Shown here piece by piece: positions 33,416 to 58,590 of a DNA stretch of 64,000 nt. Numbering within the stretch: position 1 is the first letter of the stretch; every line of letters begins with the position of its first letter. The DNA comes from Phycicoccus sp. CSK15P-2 (lineage in GTDB: Bacteria > Actinomycetota > Actinomycetes > Actinomycetales > Dermatophilaceae): assembly GCF_016888005.1 (NCBI RefSeq), contig NZ_JAFDVE010000012.1, positions 1 through 64,000 of the forward strand, in the 5' to 3' direction. A program made the position numbers and the translations under genes. Under the pieces are notes generated by a model. It saw only the letters and a program-made list of their open reading frames with translations, was not told the DNA's origin and did no database searches.

Positions 33416-34075
33416 TCAGTCGTCGGCGTCCGGGCCGGGACGACGGAGAGTGTCGGGTTCGAACCCGTGGCGGACGCCCCACAGGACGGCCTGGGGCCGC
33501 CGCGTGACGCCGATCTTCCGGTAGGCGCTGCGGATGTACGACTTCACCGAGTTGATCGACAGATACGTGCGTTTCGTGATGTCGTCGTTCGTCAGGCCTT
33601 GGGTGATGAGAGCGACGATCTCGGCTTCACGAGCGGACAACCCCTCGCTGCGACCTGGCCAGTCACCACCGTCGTCCTCGCGGTAGGCGGTTCGGTCGGT
33701 GACCCGCTCGCCGGCTGCCACCTTCTCCAGGGCCAGGACGAGCTCGTCGGCGGACATTCCTTTCGACAGGTAGCCAGAAGCTCCTCGCCGCAGTGCCGCC
33801 TCGACGAGCGCCTCGTGCGTGTTCCAGCTGTACAGGACGACCTTGTCGGCAGCGCCGCGCTCCAGCAGGTCCTGCAGACCGGCCCGGTCCGCCTGGTCCT
33901 GCGCGAAGGTGTCGTAGAGGGCGACGTCGACGGGCCGCACCACCGGCAGTCGCGAGTCGAACTCCACGAGGTGGACCCGGCCGCGGTACGGCTCCAGCAT
34001 CCGAGCCAGGCCCTGGATGACGATGTCGTAGTCGTTGAGTAACGCGACACGAACGGGCTGGGGGTCCTCGGCCAT
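33416..34075 (-). CDS. NarL/LuxR-type response regulator (orphan)
   Basis: The protein has 219 residues. The receiver domain starts VRVALLNDYDIVIQGLARML, with the acidic pair ND-D, the phospho-acceptor Asp in VDVALYDTFAQD, Ser/Thr in VVLYSWNTHEAL and Lys in YLSKGMSADEL. The HTH is LSAREAEIVALITQGLTNDD followed by ITKRTYLSINSVKSYIRSAYRKIG. ATG 34075 lies 6 nt after TACGTT, a leaderless start, which rules against the ATG at 34093. No histidine kinase is adjacent. Its divergent position suggests that it could control the 34.5-kb operon, but 459 bp separate them. Confidence 0.88.
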   Translation of the reverse strand: MAEDPQPVRVALLNDYDIVIQGLARMLEPYRGRVHLVEFDSRLPVVRPVDVALYDTFAQDQADRAGLQDLLERGAADKVVLYSWNTHEALVEAALRRGASGYLSKGMSADELVLALEKVAAGERVTDRTAYREDDGGDWPGRSEGLSAREAEIVALITQGLTNDDITKRTYLSINSVKSYIRSAYRKIGVTRRPQAVLWGVRHGFEPDTLRRPGPDADD

Positions 34076-34081
34076 GTCAGC

Positions 34082-34087
34082 AACGTA
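34082..34087 (-). promoter_or_regulatory. -10 box, leaderless start of response regulator
   Basis: TACGTT on the minus strand ends 6 nt before the ATG at 34075. Confidence 0.5.
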
Positions 34088-34318
34088 GAGCACCTGACGA
34101 CCGGGGGCGGACGTCGTCCCACGTCCACGGCCATCTCACCCCCAGGGGTGGTGTGGGAAGCCACCGGTGACACGAGAGTGACCTCATGACGAATCTTCGA
34201 CCCGGGACGTGAGCGTTCGGGTTGCCTCCGACCCGACGGACCACGTCCGCGACCTCGGGCGCCCCGTGCGCCGACGCACGAGCGGCACGATCCGGTCCCA
34301 CGACGATGCCAGCCCGGT
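34088..34318. other. Long divergent control region, left part
   Basis: This is part of a 446-bp gap between the response regulator and the SbnA-like gene. No gene is supported. GCCACCGGTG (34160-34169) recurs in the palindrome at 34372-34385, a possible binding-site pair. No AT-rich iron-box sequence was seen. Confidence 0.35.
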
Positions 34319-34533: not shown

Positions 34534-35577
34534 ATGGAGACGTCACCCGCGCGACTCGTGGTCGCGCCCCCTGTCGATCCTGACGAGCTCGTCGGGCACA
34601 CCCCGCTGGTGCACCTGCGCCGGCTCGCAGCCGACCGGCCGGGTTCGCCGCGGCTGTTCCTGAAGATGGAGGCCGCCAACCCTGGAGGGAGCGCCAAGGA
34701 CCGCCCCGCCGCCCACATGGTGCGCGAAGCCTGGACGGAGGGACTGATCGGACCCGGGAGCACCATCATCGAGTCGAGCTCGGGCAACCTCGGGGTGGCG
34801 CTCGCCCAACAGGCCCGCGCCTACGGTGTCCAATTCATCTGCGTCATCGACCCACGGACCCCCCTCACGACTCGCCGACTGATCGAGGCCTTCGGCGGCG
34901 AGCTGCACGTGGTGTCCGAGCCCGACCCGGCCACGGGAGACTGGCTGGTGGCGCGTATCGAAGCGGTGACGTCGATGATGTCCGCCGTTCCCGGCGCGTG
35001 GTGGCCCAACCAGTACGGGTCCTCGGCCAACGCGACGGCCCACGCCGACGGCACCATGCGCGAGATCCTCGAGACGCTCGACGGGGACCTCGCGGCGCTC
35101 TTCACCGCCACGAGCAGCACCGGCACGCTCGTCGGATGTGGCGACCGGCTGGCGCAGGAGGGCGTCGACGCCGCCCTGTACGCGGTCGATGCCGTCGGCA
35201 GCGTCCTCTTCGACGGCCTGCGTGGAGCGCGCGAGCTTCCCGGTCTGGGCGCCGGGCTCGTGCCGCCACTCGCCGCCCGGGCCGCCCCGCACGACGTCCT
35301 CCGTGTCACCGACCTCGACTGTGTCGTCGGCTGCCGGCGGCTGGTCGAGCGCGAGGCACTCCTGGTGGGCGCCTCGGCGGGCGGCGTCGTCACCGCGGCG
35401 GAGCGGGTCCTGGAGCGGTTCACCCCCGATGACAACGTCGTCCTCATCGCCCACGACGGGGGCGCGCGGTATCTCGACACCGTCTACGACGACACGTGGG
35501 TGCAGGAGCGGCTCGGCTGTGCTCCCCCGCTGCTGGCACAGCTCGTCGCCGACCCGTCGAGTGGCTCGCGTCCATGA
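34534..35577 (+). CDS. SbnA-like PLP-dependent synthase (cysteine synthase fold)
   Basis: The protein has 347 residues from the ATG at 34534 (GGAGG upstream). It is a fold type II PLP enzyme. VGHTPLVHLRRLA opens the domain, the PLP lysine is in NPGGSAKDRPAAH (near 53), the substrate loop is ESSSGNLGVALAQQA and the phosphate loop is SSTGTLVGC. SSSGNLG rather than the TSGNTG of O-acetylserine sulfhydrylase is a mark of SbnA/Y4xP-type enzymes. SbnA joins O-phosphoserine and glutamate to N-(2-amino-2-carboxyethyl)glutamate, the precursor of 2,3-diaminopropionate. No SbnB homologue is near; the next gene, overlapping by 4 nt, may supply the oxidative step. Confidence 0.8.
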   Translation: METSPARLVVAPPVDPDELVGHTPLVHLRRLAADRPGSPRLFLKMEAANPGGSAKDRPAAHMVREAWTEGLIGPGSTIIESSSGNLGVALAQQARAYGVQFICVIDPRTPLTTRRLIEAFGGELHVVSEPDPATGDWLVARIEAVTSMMSAVPGAWWPNQYGSSANATAHADGTMREILETLDGDLAALFTATSSTGTLVGCGDRLAQEGVDAALYAVDAVGSVLFDGLRGARELPGLGAGLVPPLAARAAPHDVLRVTDLDCVVGCRRLVEREALLVGASAGGVVTAAERVLERFTPDDNVVLIAHDGGARYLDTVYDDTWVQERLGCAPPLLAQLVADPSSGSRP

Positions 35578-38564
35578 CCGGGCTCGCGGTGGTGGGGGGA
35601 GGACCGAGAGCACTGTGGGCGCTGGAGCGTCTGGCGTGGTGGGCCCGGCAGTCGGGTGCGCCCCTACCGGACATCGTGGTCTTCACCACGGCCCGACGGT
35701 TGGGAGCGAGTGAGCACTACGACCTCGACCTGCCCTCGTTTCTTCGTCTCAACGTGGCCTCCCGTGCGGTCGACGCGTGGTCCGTGCCTGGCCGTGAGGG
35801 GCGGGGCCCTTCCTTCGACCACTGGCGCGAGGCGCGATGGCCGGGGTCCGGTGACGACCTCTATCCGCCTCGTGCACTGGCTGGCCGCTACCTGGCGGAG
35901 GTCGGGGAGACCGTCCTGGCCGAGCTCGGCGACGCGGTGACCGTTCGCACCGACCCCGTCCGACGGGTCACGGCAGGTGACAGGTGGACGGTCACGGCCG
36001 GGGGTGGGGCGCAGGACTTCGACGACGTGCTGCTGACGACGGGGCACACCGGTGGTTGGACGGGGGCGCTGGAGTCAGGGGTACCGGCGTTCCCACCGGA
36101 ACGGCTGTTGTCGGCGGCCGCGGCGGCGCGCAGGGTGGTGGTCAGGGGCGCCGCGCTCACCGGCATCGACGCCGTCCTGACCCTCACCGAAGGGCAGGGC
36201 GGCCGGTTCGAGGCCGATGGAACGAGCCTGCGCTACGTGCCGTCCGGCCGCGAGCCCCGCATCACCGTGGTCGGTCGCAGCGGGCTGTTGATGGTCCCGA
36301 AGACCGACCCGGCCGTCGTCACCGCCCTCGGCGTGGGAGCCGACGAGATCGACGAGCTCTGCTCGGACGCCGTGGCTCGTGGTGACTGGCCGGCCGCGCT
36401 CACCACGCTTGCTGGGCTGGTGCTGCACCGCTCCCACGCACGGTTCGGATGCGCCGAGCTGCCGCCCGCCCAGCGGGAGCTGCTCGAGCACGCCCGCACG
36501 ATGGGGCCGGCCGCCTGGGAGTGCCCTCCTCCCCCACCTGCCCTGCAGCTGCGTCACGACCTGGAGGTGGCCGCCGGCAGAGCGCCCGGCGACGTGCGCT
36601 GGGCGCTCGGCCACGCCTGGCGCCTGCTCCACCCCCGGCTGGTCGCTCATCAGGCCGACCTCCTGGCCGTCGACCCCTGCTCGACCGGCCCGGTGCTGGG
36701 CTGGCCGGGCTTCCGCGCCTGGTCGCGCTCCGTGGAGCGCTTGGCGTTCGGACCTCCGCCCGTCAACGGCCACAAGCTGCTCGCGCTGCTCGAGGCGGGA
36801 GTGGTCGATGTGGTCGCGGGCGACGCGGCCGCGGTGGCAGAGCAGGTCGCGGCCGACGCCGTGGTCGATGCCGTCCTTGCGCCTCCTGGCCTGGTCGACA
36901 TCGTCGACGGCCTCTGGCGGGAGCTCCTCGCCGATGGCCATGTCAGCACGGCCGAGAGCCGGCGTGGGCTGCGCGTGACACCGGCCGGAGCCTGTCTGGC
37001 CGGGTCGGGCGCGCCCACCCCCGGGCTGTGGGCGTTGGGGCGGGTCGCCGAGGACGTCGTCATCGGCCACGACACCCTGGTGCGGACTCTTCACGACTCG
37101 CCGGACGCGTTCGCGCGCGGCCTGCTCGGGTTGTCGGCGACCGACCTCGGGGACGTGCGGGCGTCGATGGTCGGCGTCACGCCGCTGCCCGCGCGGCTGC
37201 TGCCGTGGCAGCGTGAGACCTTGCGGTCGGCGGACCGACTCTCGCGCCTGCTCGACGAGTACGGGTCTCCGGTCAACCTGCTCGACGCGGCACCCTTGGC
37301 AGGTCACGCCGCTGAGCTCGTGAGTGCCGGGGAAGGGCTCGGGGTCGATGTCCGCGTCTTCTTCGCCCGCAAGGCAAACAAGGCGATCAGCCTGGCCGAG
37401 GCGGCCTTCGCGGCCGGCCACGGCGTGGACGTGTCGAGCGAACGTGAGCTGACACAGCTGCTCGACCGCGGGGCCGACCCGTCCCGGGTCATCCTGACCG
37501 CGGCGGTCAAGCCCCTGTCCCTGTTGCGCGTCGCCGTCGACAACCGGGTGTGCACGTCCCTGGACAACCACGACGAGCTCGTGGCCCTGGGCGCGGCAGG
37601 GGCGGATGGAGAGACCCCGGTCGCCGTCCGGCTCGCTGCGCCCGAACCGTTGCTGCAGTCACGGTTCGGCTTCACCGCTCAGGAGGCCGAGGAGCTCCTT
37701 GCCTCAGGTTTCCGCCATCGCCTCGAAGGCGTCCACTTCCATCTGCACGGCTACGCGGCCTCCGACAGGGCCCTCGCGCTCGACGCCGCGCTCGACGTGG
37801 TGGAGACGGCCCGGCGCGTGGGTCACCGGCCGTCGTTCATCGACATCGGCGGAGGGGTCCCGATGCGCTATCTCGACAGCGCGGAGCCCTGGACGACGTT
37901 CTGGGATGCCCACACGTCGGCGCTGCTGGGTCGAGGGCCCGAGGTCACGTGGCGAAACGACCCTCTGGGACGGCAGGTCGTCGGTGACCAGGTCCACGGC
38001 ACCCCGCCGGTCTACCCGATGTGGCAGGAGCCGGTGCGCGGTGCGTGGCTCGCCCGAGTGCTGACCTCGGCGAGCAGGAAGGGCGGGACCATCGCGTCGA
38101 GGCTCCGCGCCTCGGGCGTTCGACTGCATGTCGAACCCGGCCGTGCCCTGCTCGACGGCTGCGGACTCACGGTGGCCCGCGTCGCCTTCCGCAAGCGCGG
38201 CCGCGACGGTGAATGGCTGATCGGACTCGAGATGAACCGCACGCAGTGTCGCTCTGCTGCGGCCGACTTCCTCCTCGACCCCGTCCTGGTTCCCGTCGGT
38301 GAGGACCGCAGCGAACCAGGGACGGGCTACCTCGTGGGCGCCTACTGCATCGAGGCCGAGCTGCTGACGCTGCGGCGGATGAGCTTCCCGCGCGGAGTGG
38401 CGACCGGCGATCTCGTCGCCTTCGTCAACACCGCCGGCTACCAGATGCACATCCTCGAGAGTGCCTCCCACCAGATCCCGCTGGCCCGCAACCTCGTCCG
38501 ACGGAAGGCCGGCTGGGAGCTGGACCCCATCGACGCGCCGACCCGCCCCTCGACATACCCCTAA
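35574..38564 (+). CDS. Fusion: FAD/NAD(P)-binding oxidoreductase domain + Y4yA/SbnH-type PLP decarboxylase
   Basis: The protein has 996 residues; its start overlaps the SbnA-like stop by 4 nt. Residues 1-500 or so begin LAVVGGGPRALWALERLAWW, a dinucleotide-binding motif of the FAD-NAD(P)-binding (PF13454-like) group, with VLLTTGHTGGW and a second Rossmann-like RVVVRGAALTGIDAVL. Residues about 540-996 are a fold III PLP enzyme related to ornithine/diaminopimelate decarboxylases: YGSPVNLLDAAPL, the PLP lysine in VFFARKANKA (about 598), FHLHGY (about 722), FIDIGGGVPMRY, HVEPGRALLDGCG and the Cys of GAYCIEAELL. It resembles SbnH and rhizobial Y4yA. The joined enzyme might cleave the SbnA product oxidatively and then decarboxylate it. 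No siderophore synthetase is near, so the end product is unknown. Confidence 0.78.
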   Translation: MTGLAVVGGGPRALWALERLAWWARQSGAPLPDIVVFTTARRLGASEHYDLDLPSFLRLNVASRAVDAWSVPGREGRGPSFDHWREARWPGSGDDLYPPRALAGRYLAEVGETVLAELGDAVTVRTDPVRRVTAGDRWTVTAGGGAQDFDDVLLTTGHTGGWTGALESGVPAFPPERLLSAAAAARRVVVRGAALTGIDAVLTLTEGQGGRFEADGTSLRYVPSGREPRITVVGRSGLLMVPKTDPAVVTALGVGADEIDELCSDAVARGDWPAALTTLAGLVLHRSHARFGCAELPPAQRELLEHARTMGPAAWECPPPPPALQLRHDLEVAAGRAPGDVRWALGHAWRLLHPRLVAHQADLLAVDPCSTGPVLGWPGFRAWSRSVERLAFGPPPVNGHKLLALLEAGVVDVVAGDAAAVAEQVAADAVVDAVLAPPGLVDIVDGLWRELLADGHVSTAESRRGLRVTPAGACLAGSGAPTPGLWALGRVAEDVVIGHDTLVRTLHDSPDAFARGLLGLSATDLGDVRASMVGVTPLPARLLPWQRETLRSADRLSRLLDEYGSPVNLLDAAPLAGHAAELVSAGEGLGVDVRVFFARKANKAISLAEAAFAAGHGVDVSSERELTQLLDRGADPSRVILTAAVKPLSLLRVAVDNRVCTSLDNHDELVALGAAGADGETPVAVRLAAPEPLLQSRFGFTAQEAEELLASGFRHRLEGVHFHLHGYAASDRALALDAALDVVETARRVGHRPSFIDIGGGVPMRYLDSAEPWTTFWDAHTSALLGRGPEVTWRNDPLGRQVVGDQVHGTPPVYPMWQEPVRGAWLARVLTSASRKGGTIASRLRASGVRLHVEPGRALLDGCGLTVARVAFRKRGRDGEWLIGLEMNRTQCRSAAADFLLDPVLVPVGEDRSEPGTGYLVGAYCIEAELLTLRRMSFPRGVATGDLVAFVNTAGYQMHILESASHQIPLARNLVRRKAGWELDPIDAPTRPSTYP

Positions 38565-39270: not shown

Positions 39271-39675
39271 TCAGAGCGTGAGTCGTTCGACGGGTTGGCC
39301 GGTGATGCCGGCGATGAGGTCGAAGTCCTTGTCGAGGTGGAGCACGGTGAGCCCGGCCAGCTCCGCGACGGCGGCGATGACGAGGTCCGGGATCGACGGC
39401 GCGCGGTGCTGCCCCTGCGCCGCCAGCAGTAGCTGTACTTCGAGCGCGCGGTCCTCGGTCGCCGGGGTCAGGTACTCCACGGGCATCGCCGACAACGGGG
39501 ACCGGGCGAACAGGGCGCGGGCATCCTGACCGCTGCGGGCGGAGTAGCCGACCTCCAAACGGGTCACGGTCGCGATACGCACCAGACCCCGCCCGATCCG
39601 CCCAGCCCAGTCTTCCGCGTCCGGGCTGTCACCCAGCCGGACCAAGGCTGACTTGTCGACCAGCCACTCGGTCAC
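39271..39675 (-). CDS. vapC: PIN-domain toxin, VapC-like
   Basis: The protein has 134 residues from the GTG at 39675 that overlaps the antitoxin stop (GTGA); GTG 39681 is an alternative. PIN acidic residues are visible: Asp in [11 protein letters not shown], Glu in [10 protein letters not shown], Asp in [12 protein letters not shown] and Asp in [12 protein letters not shown]. They would bind Mg2+ and cut RNA. It is coupled to the VapB-like gene and is inhibited by it. Confidence 0.9.
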
Positions 39676-39893
39676 TGCCACGCAGCGCCCATCACCTGAG
39701 GATCATCGAGGTCGCCAGCGAGGTCGGCGAAGGCGCGTAGGTCGGACCCGCAGACCGTGCCATCCGAGGTCGCCGCATCGGCGGCCAGGCGTCGGCGGAT
39801 GTACTCCACCCGCGACAGGCCCAACCGCGCGGCGTGGGCGTCGACTCCGGCCAGCACTGCTTCGGGGACGTCACGGATCAGGACGTCAGCCAT
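39672..39893 (-). CDS. vapB: VapB-like antitoxin
   Basis: The protein has 73 residues from the ATG at 39893 with GGAGGTGG upstream. [20 protein letters not shown] followed by [20 protein letters not shown] is a ribbon-helix-helix unit. The C-terminal part, [22 protein letters not shown], is acidic with a terminal Trp, as in antitoxins that plug the VapC active site. A GATATC-N4-GATATC site lies just upstream, consistent with autoregulation. Confidence 0.85.
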
Positions 39894-40257: not shown

Positions 40258-40488
40258 ATGAGCACCTTGACGATCCGGCAGCTCGACGAGCGCACTCACG
40301 CCCGGCTCCGAGGACGCGCAGCAGAGCACGGTCGCTCGGTCGAGGCGGAGGTCCGGTCGATCCTCGACGCGGCGGTCAACGTCCCGGATCGCAACTTCCT
40401 GCTGTCCCTGCACACAGTGATGGCGGAGGCCGGTGGCCTCGAGGTCCCGCCCCGGACAGACCAGCCCCGGCCGGTGGACCTTTCGTGA
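40258..40488 (+). CDS. FitA-like ribbon-helix-helix antitoxin
   Basis: The protein has 76 residues from the ATG at 40258 with AAGGAGG 8 nt upstream. MSTLTIRQLDERTHARLRGR and AAEHGRSVEAEVRSILDAAV are typical of FitA/VapB antitoxins of the Arc fold, and VPPRTDQPRPVDLS is a toxin-binding tail. The stop overlaps the toxin start (GTGA). It controls its own operon, most likely at the TGCTAGCA site. Confidence 0.88.
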   Translation: MSTLTIRQLDERTHARLRGRAAEHGRSVEAEVRSILDAAVNVPDRNFLLSLHTVMAEAGGLEVPPRTDQPRPVDLS

Positions 40489-40904
40489 TCATCGCTGACA
40501 CCAACGTGGTGTCGGAGTTCATGAGAGATGCCCCGGACCCGGGCGTCTTGGTCTGGGCAGGCTCCATCGCACCTGCCGATCTGTCGATCTGCGTGGTCAC
40601 CGTTGAGGAGATCGAGCGCGGCCTCGGGCGCTTGCCCGTGGGCCGCAGACGTCGGGACCTCGAGAATCGCTGGACCACGCTGGTGGAGGCCTTCGCAGAC
40701 GCCGTGGTGATCTACGACCTGCCAGCAGCCCGACAGACCGCCTCGATCCTGGTAGCCGCCCAAGCGGCGGGCCGACGCATGTCCCTAGCCGACGCTCAGA
40801 TCGCCGGTATCTGCATCGCCGGCGGCCACGAACTGGCCACCCGCAACACCGACGACTTCTCCACCACCGCCGGGTTGTCCCTCATCAACCCCTTCGAGCA
40901 TTAA
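40485..40904 (+). CDS. FitB-like PIN-domain toxin
   Basis: The protein has 139 residues. Acidic PIN residues are Asp5 in MIIADTNVVSEFMR, Glu in VTVEEIERGLGRL, Asp in SLADAQIAGICIA and Asp in ATRNTDDFSTTAGL. TNVVSE with ATRNTDDF--T-GL--INPF is the FitB signature. It is an Mg2+-dependent RNase held inactive by the preceding antitoxin. It is distinct from the VapC-like toxin 0.8 kb to the left. Confidence 0.9.
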   Translation: MIIADTNVVSEFMRDAPDPGVLVWAGSIAPADLSICVVTVEEIERGLGRLPVGRRRRDLENRWTTLVEAFADAVVIYDLPAARQTASILVAAQAAGRRMSLADAQIAGICIAGGHELATRNTDDFSTTAGLSLINPFEH

Positions 40905-42713: not shown

Positions 42714-44477
42714 TCAGCGGGGGTCCTGGGTCACGGCGAGGGTGGTGCGGATGTGCAGCGACTGCAGGACGAGTGACGCGGCGAGGCATCCGCCGACGCC
42801 CTCCCCGGCCCGCAGGCGCAATGCCAGGACCGGCTCGAGCCCGAGCTCGCGCAGCACCGCGGCGTGCGCCTTCTCGCGGCTGCGCTGACCGGCGACGAGG
42901 TGCGCCTGGACGGCAGGCTCCTCCCGCACGGCGAGCAGCGCCGGCACCGACGCGGCGAGACCATCCAAGACAACGGCCGCACCGGCCCGGGCCGCACCGA
43001 GCACGACCCCGGTGAGCACGGCCACCTCTCCCCCGCCCAGCGCCGCCAGCAGAGCCCGGGCCGACAGCCCGGACGCATCCCCCACCCGCTCCAGCGCAGC
43101 AGCGACGACGGTCCGCTTGCGCTCCAGCGTCTCCGCATCCGCGCCGACGCCCAGCCCCACGACGTCCTCCGCCGGCAGCCCCACCAGGGCCGCCGCGAGC
43201 GCCGCCGCGACGGTCGTGTTGCCGATGCCGACCTCACCGAGCACGACGACCCCCGACGCCGCGGCATCCCGCCCGACCGCCACCCCAGCCGCAACCAGCC
43301 GGTCCACGTCCTCGCCAGCCAGCGCGTCGGCCGAGACCAGGTCACCCCGCCCGGACACCGGCCGCGCATCGAGCGCACCCGGCACGAGCCCACCCGACAC
43401 CCCCGCGTCCACGACGACCACGCCGAGCCCCGCGCCACGGGCCGCCAGCACACCGGCCGACTCCCCCGCCACCGCGGCGAGCGCCACGTCACGGGTCACC
43501 GACGACGGGAACGCACTGACCCCGAGGCCGGCCACCGGATGGTCCGCCGCCGCCAGCACGAGCGTCCCGCCCGTCACCGGCCCGGAACCCAGGGAACGCA
43601 CCCGGGCCACGACCCGGTCGAGCACCCCGAGCGCCTCCGGGGCGGCCAGCTGGGCATCCGCCGCATCCGTCGCCCCCACCAGCCGGGACGACGACGGCCC
43701 GCGCAGGTGCGACACCGGCGCCGCCGGCCCACCGTCCTCGTCCGGCCACCGCTCGTGGAGGACGACGTCGGCCAACGGCGCCCGCTTCGACCACGCCGCC
43801 CGCTGCAGCCCCGGCTCCGGCGGCCGCTCGTCCGGCCAGCCCAGACACAGCCAGCCCAGCGTCTCGACCCCGTCCGGCAGCCCGAGCAGCCCGGCGAGGT
43901 CGGCCGGCTCGAAGAGCGTCACCCACCCCATCCCGAGCCCGAGCGCCCGCGCCGTGAGCCACATGTTCTGCACGGCGGTGGCACACGACCACATGTCGGT
44001 GTCGGGGAAGGTCGCGCGGCCGAGCACCCCCGCCGCGGGCGTCCGCCGGTCGCACGCCACGACGACCCCCACCGGGGCCTCGCGCAGCCCTTCGAGCTTG
44101 AGGTCGAGCAGCCGCGCCGCGCGGTCCTCGGTGAGCACCTCGGCCTGGCGCAGCCGCGCCGCATCCGCCAGGGCCGCAGCCCGGTCCCGCGTCGACGCGT
44201 CCCGCACGACGACGAACCGCCACGGCTGGCTGTGCCCCACGCTCGGCGCGCGGTGCCCCGCCTCGAGCACGGCCGTCAGCAGCGTGTCAGGCACCGGGTC
44301 GGGGCGGAAGCGCCGGATGTCCCGCCGCCCGGCCACGACCTCGCCGAGCGCCGCCACGACGTCGGGGCCCATCGCCCAGCCGTCCGGGTCGGCCGCGCGG
44401 GCCGCCGCGCTCGTCGTGTCACCGACGAGCGGCACCGGGCGGGCGTACCCCCCGGCGGGCGGCGTGACCGGCTCCAT
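42714..44477 (-). CDS. BluB-CobT fusion: DMB synthase + nicotinate-nucleotide:DMB phosphoribosyltransferase
   Basis: The protein has 587 residues. The N-terminal domain (about 25-260) is BluB, which destroys FMNH2 with O2 to make 5,6-dimethylbenzimidazole: RRDIRRFRPDPVPDTLLTAV, GHRAPSVGHSQPWRFVVVRD, ALGLGMGWVTLFEPADL and LCLGWPDERPPEPG. The C-terminal domain (about 265-587) is CobT, which attaches DMB to ribose phosphate: AADHPVAGLGVSAFPSSVTR and the catalytic Glu in VLGEVGIGNTTVAAAL. The fusion would pass DMB from one site to the next. It starts 1 nt after the cobN stop, with GGAGG inside cobN, so it shares the cobN riboswitch. Confidence 0.92.
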   Translation of the reverse strand: MEPVTPPAGGYARPVPLVGDTTSAAARAADPDGWAMGPDVVAALGEVVAGRRDIRRFRPDPVPDTLLTAVLEAGHRAPSVGHSQPWRFVVVRDASTRDRAAALADAARLRQAEVLTEDRAARLLDLKLEGLREAPVGVVVACDRRTPAAGVLGRATFPDTDMWSCATAVQNMWLTARALGLGMGWVTLFEPADLAGLLGLPDGVETLGWLCLGWPDERPPEPGLQRAAWSKRAPLADVVLHERWPDEDGGPAAPVSHLRGPSSSRLVGATDAADAQLAAPEALGVLDRVVARVRSLGSGPVTGGTLVLAAADHPVAGLGVSAFPSSVTRDVALAAVAGESAGVLAARGAGLGVVVVDAGVSGGLVPGALDARPVSGRGDLVSADALAGEDVDRLVAAGVAVGRDAAASGVVVLGEVGIGNTTVAAALAAALVGLPAEDVVGLGVGADAETLERKRTVVAAALERVGDASGLSARALLAALGGGEVAVLTGVVLGAARAGAAVVLDGLAASVPALLAVREEPAVQAHLVAGQRSREKAHAAVLRELGLEPVLALRLRAGEGVGGCLAASLVLQSLHIRTTLAVTQDPR

Positions 44478-48137: not shown

Positions 48138-48287
48138 TCCTCCGGGGGTTTCCTCGCCCCCATGTCGGGTGTGGGGCCCGGCGCGGCCGGGCATCCGCGG
48201 CGGCGTTCCTGACTCGCCCCGGAGGGGCTCACAGTGGCGGGACCGTCCCGGACTCGCACCGGGTTCCGTCGACGTCGGACGTAGCGG
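48138..48287 (-). promoter_or_regulatory. Cobalamin riboswitch of cobN-bluB/cobT
   Basis: The minus strand shows GGTGCGAGTCCGGG, the GCCACTGT core (ACAGTGGC at 48231-48238) and the B12-box AGTCAGGAACGCC (48214-48202). TAGGCT (48293-48288) is the likely -10. A G-rich / C-rich hairpin (GGGGGCGAGGAAACCCCC) precedes the ribosome site GGAGGAG, so the switch probably acts on translation. Confidence 0.93.
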
Positions 48288-56261: not shown

Positions 56262-56387
56262 CCGGGATGACGCGTCCCGGATGACGTCCCGGCGCCCCGA
56301 GTTCCTGGCTCGCGGAAGACCCGCTCACAGTGGCGCGACCGCCCCGGACTCCCACCGGGTTCCTCGACGCAGGCGCTGGTGGGGGCG
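56262..56387 (-). promoter_or_regulatory. Cobalamin riboswitch of cbiMNQO
   Basis: The minus strand has GGTGGGAGTCCGGGG, GCCACTGT (ACAGTGGC at 56327-56334) and the B12-box GAGCCAGGAAC (56311-56301). TAGCCT (56393-56388) is a likely -10 and overlaps the cobM stop codon. The ribosome site GGGAAGG follows the aptamer. Confidence 0.93.
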
Positions 56388-58433: not shown

Positions 58434-58590
58434 GGCCCCGGCCTCGGCGAGGAATCCGGTGAGAGTCCGGAGCGGTCCCGCCACTGTCATCCCGCGAGGG
58501 AGAGCCAGGACGTCGCAGGGGCCCGCCGCCGCGCGACACCGGCGGCGTCCGTCACTCGGGCGAGCGTGGTCACTCGCCGCAGGAGGAGTC
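58434..58590 (+). promoter_or_regulatory. Cobalamin riboswitch of chlID-cobO-cobBC
   Basis: GGTGAGAGTCCGGAGCGG is followed by GCCACTGT (58480-58487) and the B12-box AGCCAGGACGTC (58503-58514). CATGAT (58428-58433) is a possible -10. AGGAGGAGTCCGC after the aptamer resembles the GGAGGAGTCCGCC after the cobN switch, suggesting the same translational control. Confidence 0.92.

Follow-up and report, generated by a model that had tools for sequence, protein, structure and literature searches.

What could be made by a two-gene operon in which a synthase of the type known from staphyloferrin B biosynthesis is followed by a long protein with two enzyme halves? The question is raised by a 64,000-nucleotide stretch of the genome of Phycicoccus sp. 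CSK15P-2 (contig NZ_JAFDVE010000012.1, positions 1 to 64,000; hereafter the window). Here a gene for an SbnA-like, pyridoxal phosphate (PLP)-dependent synthase shares 4 nt with a gene for a 996-residue fusion protein. A first-pass annotation had singled out this pair, and all that it described at the level of letters is there: the two open reading frames (ORFs), the shared ATGA and the quoted motifs (ESSSGN at synthase residue 80; GGGPRALWALERL, VFFARKANKA, HVEPGRALLDGCG and GAYCIEAELL in the fusion). We find that the pair is the local form of a cassette of three activities (SbnA-like synthase, flavin monooxygenase-like protein and fold III PLP decarboxylase) that is real, conserved and not unique to this genome. 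The cassette occurs in seven phyla and has no product assigned in the literature searched; among the literature matches listed, no title or abstract describes the three proteins together. It probably makes a small nitrogen-rich molecule.

A cassette with a conserved gene order

A search of a genome collection with the fusion as query returned 119 sites coding for relatives of the whole fusion or of one of its parts, so the fusion is not a chance ORF. This count also rules out a fusion special to the window genome. Eighty of the loci were kept as a first sample. Synthase, flavin and decarboxylase genes are found together in 78 of these, on one strand and in that order; the exceptions are a locus at a contig end with no synthase (L041) and one with the decarboxylase alone (L088). 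They are mostly three separate genes, and in one locus (L034) 1.65 kb lies between the synthase and flavin genes. The second sample was drawn from decarboxylase matches (E up to 1e-60) in 10 of 395 Bacteroidota genomes, 18 of 390 genomes of one Bacteroidota order and 7 of 392 Planctomycetota genomes, and comprises 26 fetched loci that are absent from the first (G986, truncated at the edge of its contig, is not among them). All three genes occur in the same order in 23 of the 26, the synthase-plus-flavin pair being missing from L190, L201 and L204. The second-sample decarboxylases are at most 77% identical to those of the first, and the samples are not independent by lineage. Thus a search for the same pair in other genomes, which had been proposed at the outset, recovers the full set of activities in a single order in 101 loci over both samples. 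Counting the first sample and matches on plasmids, the phyla represented are Actinomycetota, Bacteroidota, Balneolota, Planctomycetota, Verrucomicrobiota, Acidobacteriota and Pseudomonadota.

Close to home, the cassette is rare. Of 186 genomes from the window's family, 1 yielded the full fusion (up to four candidates scored per genome), and of 12 from its genus, 1 has a strong synthase match, so the window copy was probably acquired. Among 397 Mycobacteriales genomes, the fusion (P0002) was matched in 139, mostly weakly. Flavin and decarboxylase parts share one ORF in 18 of the 80 first-sample loci by one criterion and in 16 by a stricter one, all of them in Actinomycetota. In Gracilimonas mengyeensis (L075:6981-9839) it is the SbnA-like and flavin parts that are fused, in one ORF of 952 residues. 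That each neighbouring pair is fused somewhere supports a single pathway, and together with the constant gene order it bears out the earlier suggestion that the parts are coupled. Very probably, they are three enzymes of the types named here, acting in one pathway.

Three layouts can be distinguished among the fetched loci: the cassette; an ornithine cyclodeaminase (OCD) type; and a decarboxylase with a divergent synthase and neither redox enzyme. The decarboxylase tree comprises 107 of 121 rows, 14 having been removed by hand (mostly near-duplicates, L088 among them); excluded beforehand were L041, L047, L053, L057, L116 and L118, the loci L112-L141 for their shortness, and matches that were weak or short. 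In this tree, the 71 cassette rows make up one side of a branch (SH-aLRT 100), and the 19 OCD rows and the 16 rows with neither redox enzyme each form one side of a branch as well. The window fusion clusters with separate-gene loci from a Tsukamurella plasmid and an actinomycete metagenome-assembled genome (SH-aLRT 99), apart from the fusions of Corynebacterium, Rothia and Propioniciclava. In the metagenome-assembled genome, the flavin and decarboxylase ORFs are in different frames and overlap, which could reflect a sequencing error. Placing the fusion on the tree needs four changes, two of which are forced by well-supported branches. The forced changes would be two fusions, or one fusion and a later split, and judging from the tree the fusion seems to have had multiple origins.

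The 19 OCD-type loci mostly read OCD, decarboxylase, cysteine-synthase-like gene, MATE, some having the cysteine-synthase-like gene first and then OCD, decarboxylase and MATE; a MATE gene is present in 18 of 19, and the OCD gene is directly upstream of the decarboxylase gene in 17 of 19. The best family for the OCD-fold gene is TIGR03944 (SbnB), far under its cut-off. Published descriptions give four genes, AesA-D, for the operon of ethylenediaminesuccinic acid hydroxyarginine (EDHA; PMC10702961), a MATE gene and a predicted iron-regulator site for an aminopolycarboxylate cluster of Nocardia (PMC10920908), and, for ethylenediaminedisuccinate (EDDS) in Amycolatopsis, a synthesis that is Zur-controlled and has aspartate as a precursor (PMC9252823). 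We infer that the OCD loci are EDDS/EDHA (aes) operons. A rhizobial operon (e.g., on pSINME01 of S. meliloti AK83) has the order decarboxylase, cysteine-synthase-like gene, opine dehydrogenase, IucA/C, MFS. One synthase-decarboxylase core is thus partnered by three unrelated redox folds, namely the OCD type, the opine dehydrogenase type and an FzmM-like flavoprotein. Two details may be added. In L142-L153, L165 and L168-L171, a third operon type, a Y4yA-type decarboxylase lies beside a divergent CysM-like synthase (the L142 synthase has a rhodanese-like C-terminal part). The Mycobacterium avium plasmid pMAH135 (L109) carries an OCD-Y4yA-MATE operon and cysteine-synthase-like genes near copper-handling genes.

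Table 1. Features of the synthase and fusion genes, numbered from the first nucleotide of the window
Feature	Position	Strand	Basis or remark
SbnA-like PLP synthase gene	34534-35577	+	347 aa; O-phosphoserine dependence predicted from sequence
ATGA shared by synthase TGA stop and fusion start	35574-35577	+	4 nt; direct reading
Fusion gene: flavin monooxygenase-like half and fold III PLP decarboxylase half	35574-38564	+	996 aa, without internal stop; Pfam
Flavin half, homologous to FzmM over almost its whole length	35574-37181	+	profile, AlphaFold2 model, structure alignment
Decarboxylase half, fold III, ornithine decarboxylase (ODC)/diaminopimelate decarboxylase (DAPDC)/Y4yA type	37185-38561	+	PF02784; alignment; SbnH 6knh among profile matches
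Lys55 of synthase, predicted PLP lysine	34696-34698	+	invariant in 79 of 79 scored
Tyr49 of flavin half, counterpart of flavin-stacking Trp51 in 8cp2	35718-35720	+	alignment
Asn60 of flavin half, counterpart of catalytic Asn62 in 8cp2	35751-35753	+	alignment
Lys600 of fusion (FARKANK), predicted PLP Schiff-base lysine	37371-37373	+	invariant in 15 aligned members

Assignment of the three enzymes

The window synthase barely passes the SbnA model TIGR03945 (350.2 bits; cut-off 349.95), and its closest match in the PDB is S. aureus SbnA (5d84, E 1.7e-65). In SbnA, phosphoserine is selected by Arg132, Tyr152 and Ser185 (PMC12414870), which, with numbering mapped through the 5d84 alignment, are Arg141, Tyr161 and Ser194 of the window synthase. 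The Arg, Tyr and Ser are kept in 79 of 79 cassette synthases scored, the window's included (unscored were L041, L088, the truncated L047 and the fused L075). The synthases of the 19 OCD loci all have the Arg; at the Tyr position they have His, Tyr or Asp (15, 3 and 1, respectively), and at the Ser position Gly in every case. In these substrate residues, the cassette synthases are thus closer to SbnA than the OCD-locus enzymes are. We predict that the window enzyme is of SbnA type and dependent on O-phosphoserine, in keeping with its first assignment.

It could still be asked whether the synthase is no more than a regular cysteine synthase, next to a degradative fusion enzyme unrelated to it. 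The CysK model TIGR01136 is indeed matched, at 203.8 bits, under its cut-off of 344.15. However, no other family or PDB entry matches nearly as well as SbnA, and the genome already has two CysK-like paralogues elsewhere, which have lower scores and are without the Arg and Ser of the phosphoserine set. The conserved order of the three genes and the SbnA-flavin fusion of Gracilimonas also argue against this explanation, which we regard as highly improbable.

Pfam places PF13454 on residues 5-158 of the fusion and PF02784 on residues 590-773. Alignment and a predicted structure both bear on whether the first half is an oxidoreductase. A profile of 46 relatives matches the aspartate N-hydroxylase 8cp2 over residues 2-568 of 601 (E 6.8e-73), the next matches being flavin-containing monooxygenases, from E 1.8e-5. 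With an AlphaFold2 model of the flavin half (pLDDT 90.4, pTM 0.92) as query, the top Foldseek ranks are 8cp2 and 8cp5 (E 4.6e-28 to 5.1e-27, TM 0.61-0.71, rmsd 6.9-7.8). VIA-align superposes the model on the same two entries over 492 residues (Z 29, rmsd 3.3); the other entries shown have Z of at most 21.2, bacillithiol disulfide reductase coming next at Z 21 over 294 residues, then ornithine N-hydroxylases at Z about 19 over 355-364 residues. By profile and modelled fold, the half is a class B flavin monooxygenase type, nearest to the aspartate N-hydroxylase FzmM. On the same two lines of evidence, we rejected an SbnB-like dehydrogenase as its identity.

The residues around the flavin and the substrate can be compared with those of 8cp2, in which Asn62, of a kind that is critical in related monooxygenases, lies over the flavin and Trp51 packs on it. 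In that enzyme, aspartate is held by Arg13, Arg276, Arg416, Arg577 and Asn413, and a sulfate by Arg266, Arg409, Arg412, Asn413 and Arg416; the substitution N413E abolishes hydroxylation (PMC10404684). The catalytic Asn is invariant in all 46 flavin relatives, and the position stacking on the flavin is Tyr in 44 and Phe in 2. The counterpart of Arg13 (Arg12) is Arg in 29 and Lys in 17, that of Arg266 (Lys243) is Lys in 37 and Arg in 9, and that of Arg409 (Arg350) is kept in 44 of 46. Arg276, Arg412, Asn413 and Arg416 have no counterpart in the flavin half (the window has Pro354 and Val357 for Asn413 and Arg416), and Arg577 is outside the alignment. Because the catalytic Asn is kept and most of the aspartate site is lost, we expect the same catalytic type acting on a different substrate, perhaps still an acidic one. 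In L182, L183 and L184 (genus g42, of the window's bacterial family), a flavoprotein 43-44% identical to the window flavin half has no synthase or decarboxylase gene with it in the fetched stretch.

The second half of the fusion is, by sequence, a fold III decarboxylase of Y4yA type within the wider DAPDC/ODC/SbnH group, as the first reading of the locus had it. The PLP lysine, GGG, EPGR, Cys and Tyr of the active site are in place and invariant in 15 hand-chosen aligned members; the roles of these residues are presumably those familiar from the DAPDC/ODC family in general. The best matches of its profile are several diaminopimelate decarboxylases (up to E 3.8e-31), with SbnH (6knh) at E 9.6e-23.

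The proposed pathway and its rivals

We suggest a pathway of three steps. First, the SbnA-like enzyme would join O-phospho-L-serine to the amino group of glutamate (the partner used by S. aureus SbnA) or aspartate, giving an N-(2-amino-2-carboxyethyl) amino acid. The decarboxylase would strip the serine-derived carboxylate to leave an N-(2-aminoethyl) amino acid, a role modelled on that expected of its relative in EDDS synthesis. The FzmM-like flavoprotein, with NADPH and O2, would oxygenate an amine (N-hydroxylation, possibly in several rounds), at the point where the OCD and opine enzymes of the sister operons would form a second C-N bond. In the window, decarboxylation and oxygenation would take place on one polypeptide, and their order could be either. 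We give the whole scheme of coupling, decarboxylation and N-oxygenation a probability of about 0.5, and we think it somewhat better than an even bet that the flavin step is an N-oxygenation; the substrates, the order of the steps and the product are what we infer from the enzyme types. Relatives of the FzmM-like N-hydroxylase make nitrosuccinate. A link between phosphoserine coupling and a protein of this kind may yield N-O or N-N chemistry so far without precedent.

Several observations weigh against the scheme. The synthase clears TIGR03945 by only 0.3 bits, and 5 of the 9 other cassette synthases scored fall below the cut-off. The Foldseek superposition on 8cp2 and 8cp5 is loose, and the bacillithiol disulfide reductase match to the model keeps a reductase role for the flavin half as a less likely option. 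The window flavin half itself departs from its relatives at Leu53 (Gln in 42 of 46), Ser46 (Gly in 42 of 46) and Phe513 (Trp in 45 of 46). A flavoprotein of the same family is found with neither synthase nor decarboxylase in the fetched stretches of three genomes of the window's bacterial family. In addition, we know of no product, substrate or activity for any member of the cassette.

The flavoprotein might instead equal SbnB in outcome. It would oxidize the secondary amine of the SbnA product, either to a nitrone by way of N-hydroxylation or by dehydrogenation, and hydrolysis would yield a 2-oxo acid together with 2,3-diaminopropionate, which might carry an N-hydroxy group; from this the decarboxylase would make ethylenediamine or a hydroxy derivative. 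The flavin gene does sit directly upstream of the decarboxylase gene, exactly where 17 of the 19 OCD-type loci have their OCD-fold gene. The two redox genes were also never seen together, with no OCD match in the 80 and 26 loci of the two samples and no flavin match in the 19 OCD-type loci. However, the OCD operons have a decarboxylase too, and if they make EDDS or EDHA, their OCD enzyme builds a second C-N bond and no diaminopropionate is released; moreover, the flavin half resembles N-hydroxylases, not dehydrogenases. On balance we consider this outcome possible, though unlikely. The first-pass annotation, which had suggested that the flavin half may stand in for SbnB, was thus right about the two enzymes and the place of the flavin gene, and probably wrong about the chemistry, since a class B flavin monooxygenase type does not fit the NAD-dependent oxidation carried out by SbnB.

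The other reading to be weighed against N-oxygenation is that the cassette is the core of an aminopolycarboxylate metallophore pathway like those for EDDS and EDHA. Reductive amination, the task of an OCD-type enzyme or opine dehydrogenase elsewhere, would here fall to the flavoprotein, and the product would leave the cell to serve in metal uptake. The sister operons have a related decarboxylase and a redox partner in the same role. In C. striatum, a study based on antiSMASH reports a cluster for an EDDS-like aminopolycarboxylate (PMC10486106), and a survey finds the EDHA cluster family in Corynebacterium as well (PMC11888242). The one SbnA-like match above 300 bits in the C. striatum genome (339.6, below the family cut-off) is in the cassette, so that the reported cluster may be the cassette. 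Against this, single-sequence queries for OCD, opine dehydrogenase, IucA/C, MATE, MFS and TonB receptor gave nothing above 35 bits in the 80 loci and nothing above 60 bits in the 26, although queries of this kind can miss distant transporters. The OCD-loci synthases also differ at the phosphoserine residues. Pfam searches of 40 cassette-locus neighbours found two transport proteins, one of the glycine-transporter family directly downstream (L028) and an ABC ATPase 3.3 kb away (L091). In the Sulfitobacter copy, TRAP and BCCT transporter genes lie at least 3 kb downstream.

Regulatory boxes were scanned with Zur, IdeR and Fur consensus motifs in forms that suit Actinomycetota best. For two forms of the Zur consensus, 4 and 5 of the 79 regions upstream of cassettes contain a match with 3 mismatches, and the corresponding numbers for 237 shuffles are 5 and 3, so the matches are somewhat above chance; the genera concerned are scattered, and the window has no such box. 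Among the OCD loci, a Zur-like box within 3 mismatches is present in 4 of 19, all close relatives, whereas 0 of 57 shuffles have one. The 79 cassette upstream regions, the window's included, gave no Fur- or IdeR-like box; the IdeR consensus was likewise absent from all 19 OCD operons, so it provides no test. A siderophore or zincophore operon is not favoured by the neighbouring genes, and the box scan counts as weak evidence. The metallophore explanation is in our judgement rather unlikely, and the cassette is probably not a metallophore operon.

Neighbouring genes and known systems

Genes connected with stress recur beside the cassette. Neighbours in the 80 loci of the first sample include catalase (11), photolyase (8), Ku (4), LigD (3), topoisomerase IB (5) and YetF-like proteins (5). 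HPII-type catalase, photolyase, Ku/LigD and topoisomerase IB are all more frequent near the cassette in this sample than their density in genomes would predict. For catalase, the genomes of 39 loci, all outside Actinomycetota (two Rhizobiaceae loci left out), have 45 matches in about 225 Mb together, from which about 0.14 would be expected in windows of the size searched, against the 11 seen. Of the photolyase loci, 7 of 8 are Corynebacterium, so these are nearly one event. It should be noted that automatic neighbour lists are noisy in GC-rich loci because of spurious antisense ORFs. The 23 cassette loci of the second sample gave catalase 1, topoisomerase IB 2, photolyase 1 (weak, 69-76 bits), YetF-like 1, Ku 0 and LigD 0. 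The link with stress, an idea prompted by the neighbours themselves, is thus strong in the first sample but has largely faded in the second, and none of the six families occurs among the 10 window ORFs scanned around the cassette; the photolyase matches of the window genome are on other contigs.

Some of these neighbours are very close. An HPII-type catalase gene (Pfam) lies directly beside the cassette, upstream of SbnA, in L081, L085, L091 and L104, from several Bacteroidota families, and one found by single-sequence search follows the decarboxylase gene in L210, from the Planctomycetota sample. DNA photolyase genes precede the SbnA gene at L060:5495-6928 (by about 30 bp) and L051:5665-6987 (by about 10 bp), probably in one operon with the cassette. 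As a more speculative reading, to which we give little weight, the cassette may produce N-oxygenated aminoethyl amino acids, or else a related dialkylhydroxylamine or chelate, as a new class of intracellular compounds that stay in the cell and protect against stress, for example as a radical scavenger or a manganese or iron ligand. If so, a widely spread small-molecule stress system would be hidden in annotation under the name "2,3-diaminopropionate biosynthesis protein SbnA".

In the window, seven of the 10 neighbouring ORFs could be assigned by Pfam (the other three are without a family). As had been stated at first, none of the seven is an IucA/IucC synthetase, a nonribosomal peptide synthetase or an exporter. 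Nor is any of them an FzmL/CreD-type lyase, for which no directed query was made. A promoter and terminator scan gave nothing, no tRNA was found in the window, and neither a phage collection nor PHROGs gave a match. A LuxR-type regulator gene (33416-34093, -) is divergent from the cassette, and a PAS-HTH regulator adjoins the Sulfitobacter plasmid copy (L108). Downstream, in a stretch of lower GC, are two PIN-domain genes (39271-39681, -, and 40485-40904, +), perhaps for VapC-like toxins. These are followed by a cobalamin region with a fusion of a nitroreductase-family (perhaps BluB-like) protein and a CobT-like phosphoribosyltransferase (42714-44306, -) and three cobalamin riboswitches (48205-48267, -; 56299-56365, -; 58451-58511, +). 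At the start of the window, positions 1-2000 have a GC content of 0.57, against about 0.73 directly after.

How the cassette relates to known systems can now be summarized. With the staphyloferrin B enzymes SbnA, SbnB and SbnH of S. aureus, it shares an SbnA family member with the same phosphoserine-selecting residues and a fold III decarboxylase of the group that includes SbnH. It differs from them in having an FzmM-like flavoprotein, with no SbnB-fold gene and no NIS (NRPS-independent siderophore) synthetase beside it, and its decarboxylase profile matches diaminopimelate decarboxylases better than SbnH. Like the [S,S]-EDDS and EDHA aes operons, as far as they are described in the sources cited, it combines a cysteine-synthase-like enzyme, a Y4yA-type decarboxylase and a redox enzyme; the OCD loci that we equate with those operons have an OCD-type enzyme and, in 18 of 19, a MATE gene, whereas here the redox enzyme is a flavoprotein and no such exporter was found in the loci searched. 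The rhizobial Y4yA operons also have the decarboxylase adjoining a cysteine-synthase-like enzyme, but with an octopine/nopaline dehydrogenase-type enzyme, IucA/IucC, MFS and a TonB receptor. Finally, the flavin half is homologous to FzmM/CreE (8cp2, 8cp5) along the whole chain, with the same three-domain fold including FAD and NADPH domains, the catalytic Asn, an aromatic residue beside the flavin and counterparts of Arg13 (Arg/Lys), Arg409 and Arg266 (Lys/Arg). Unlike those enzymes, it is without counterparts of most aspartate-site residues (Arg276, Asn413, Arg416) and of Arg412 of the sulfate site, and its partner genes encode SbnA and the decarboxylase.

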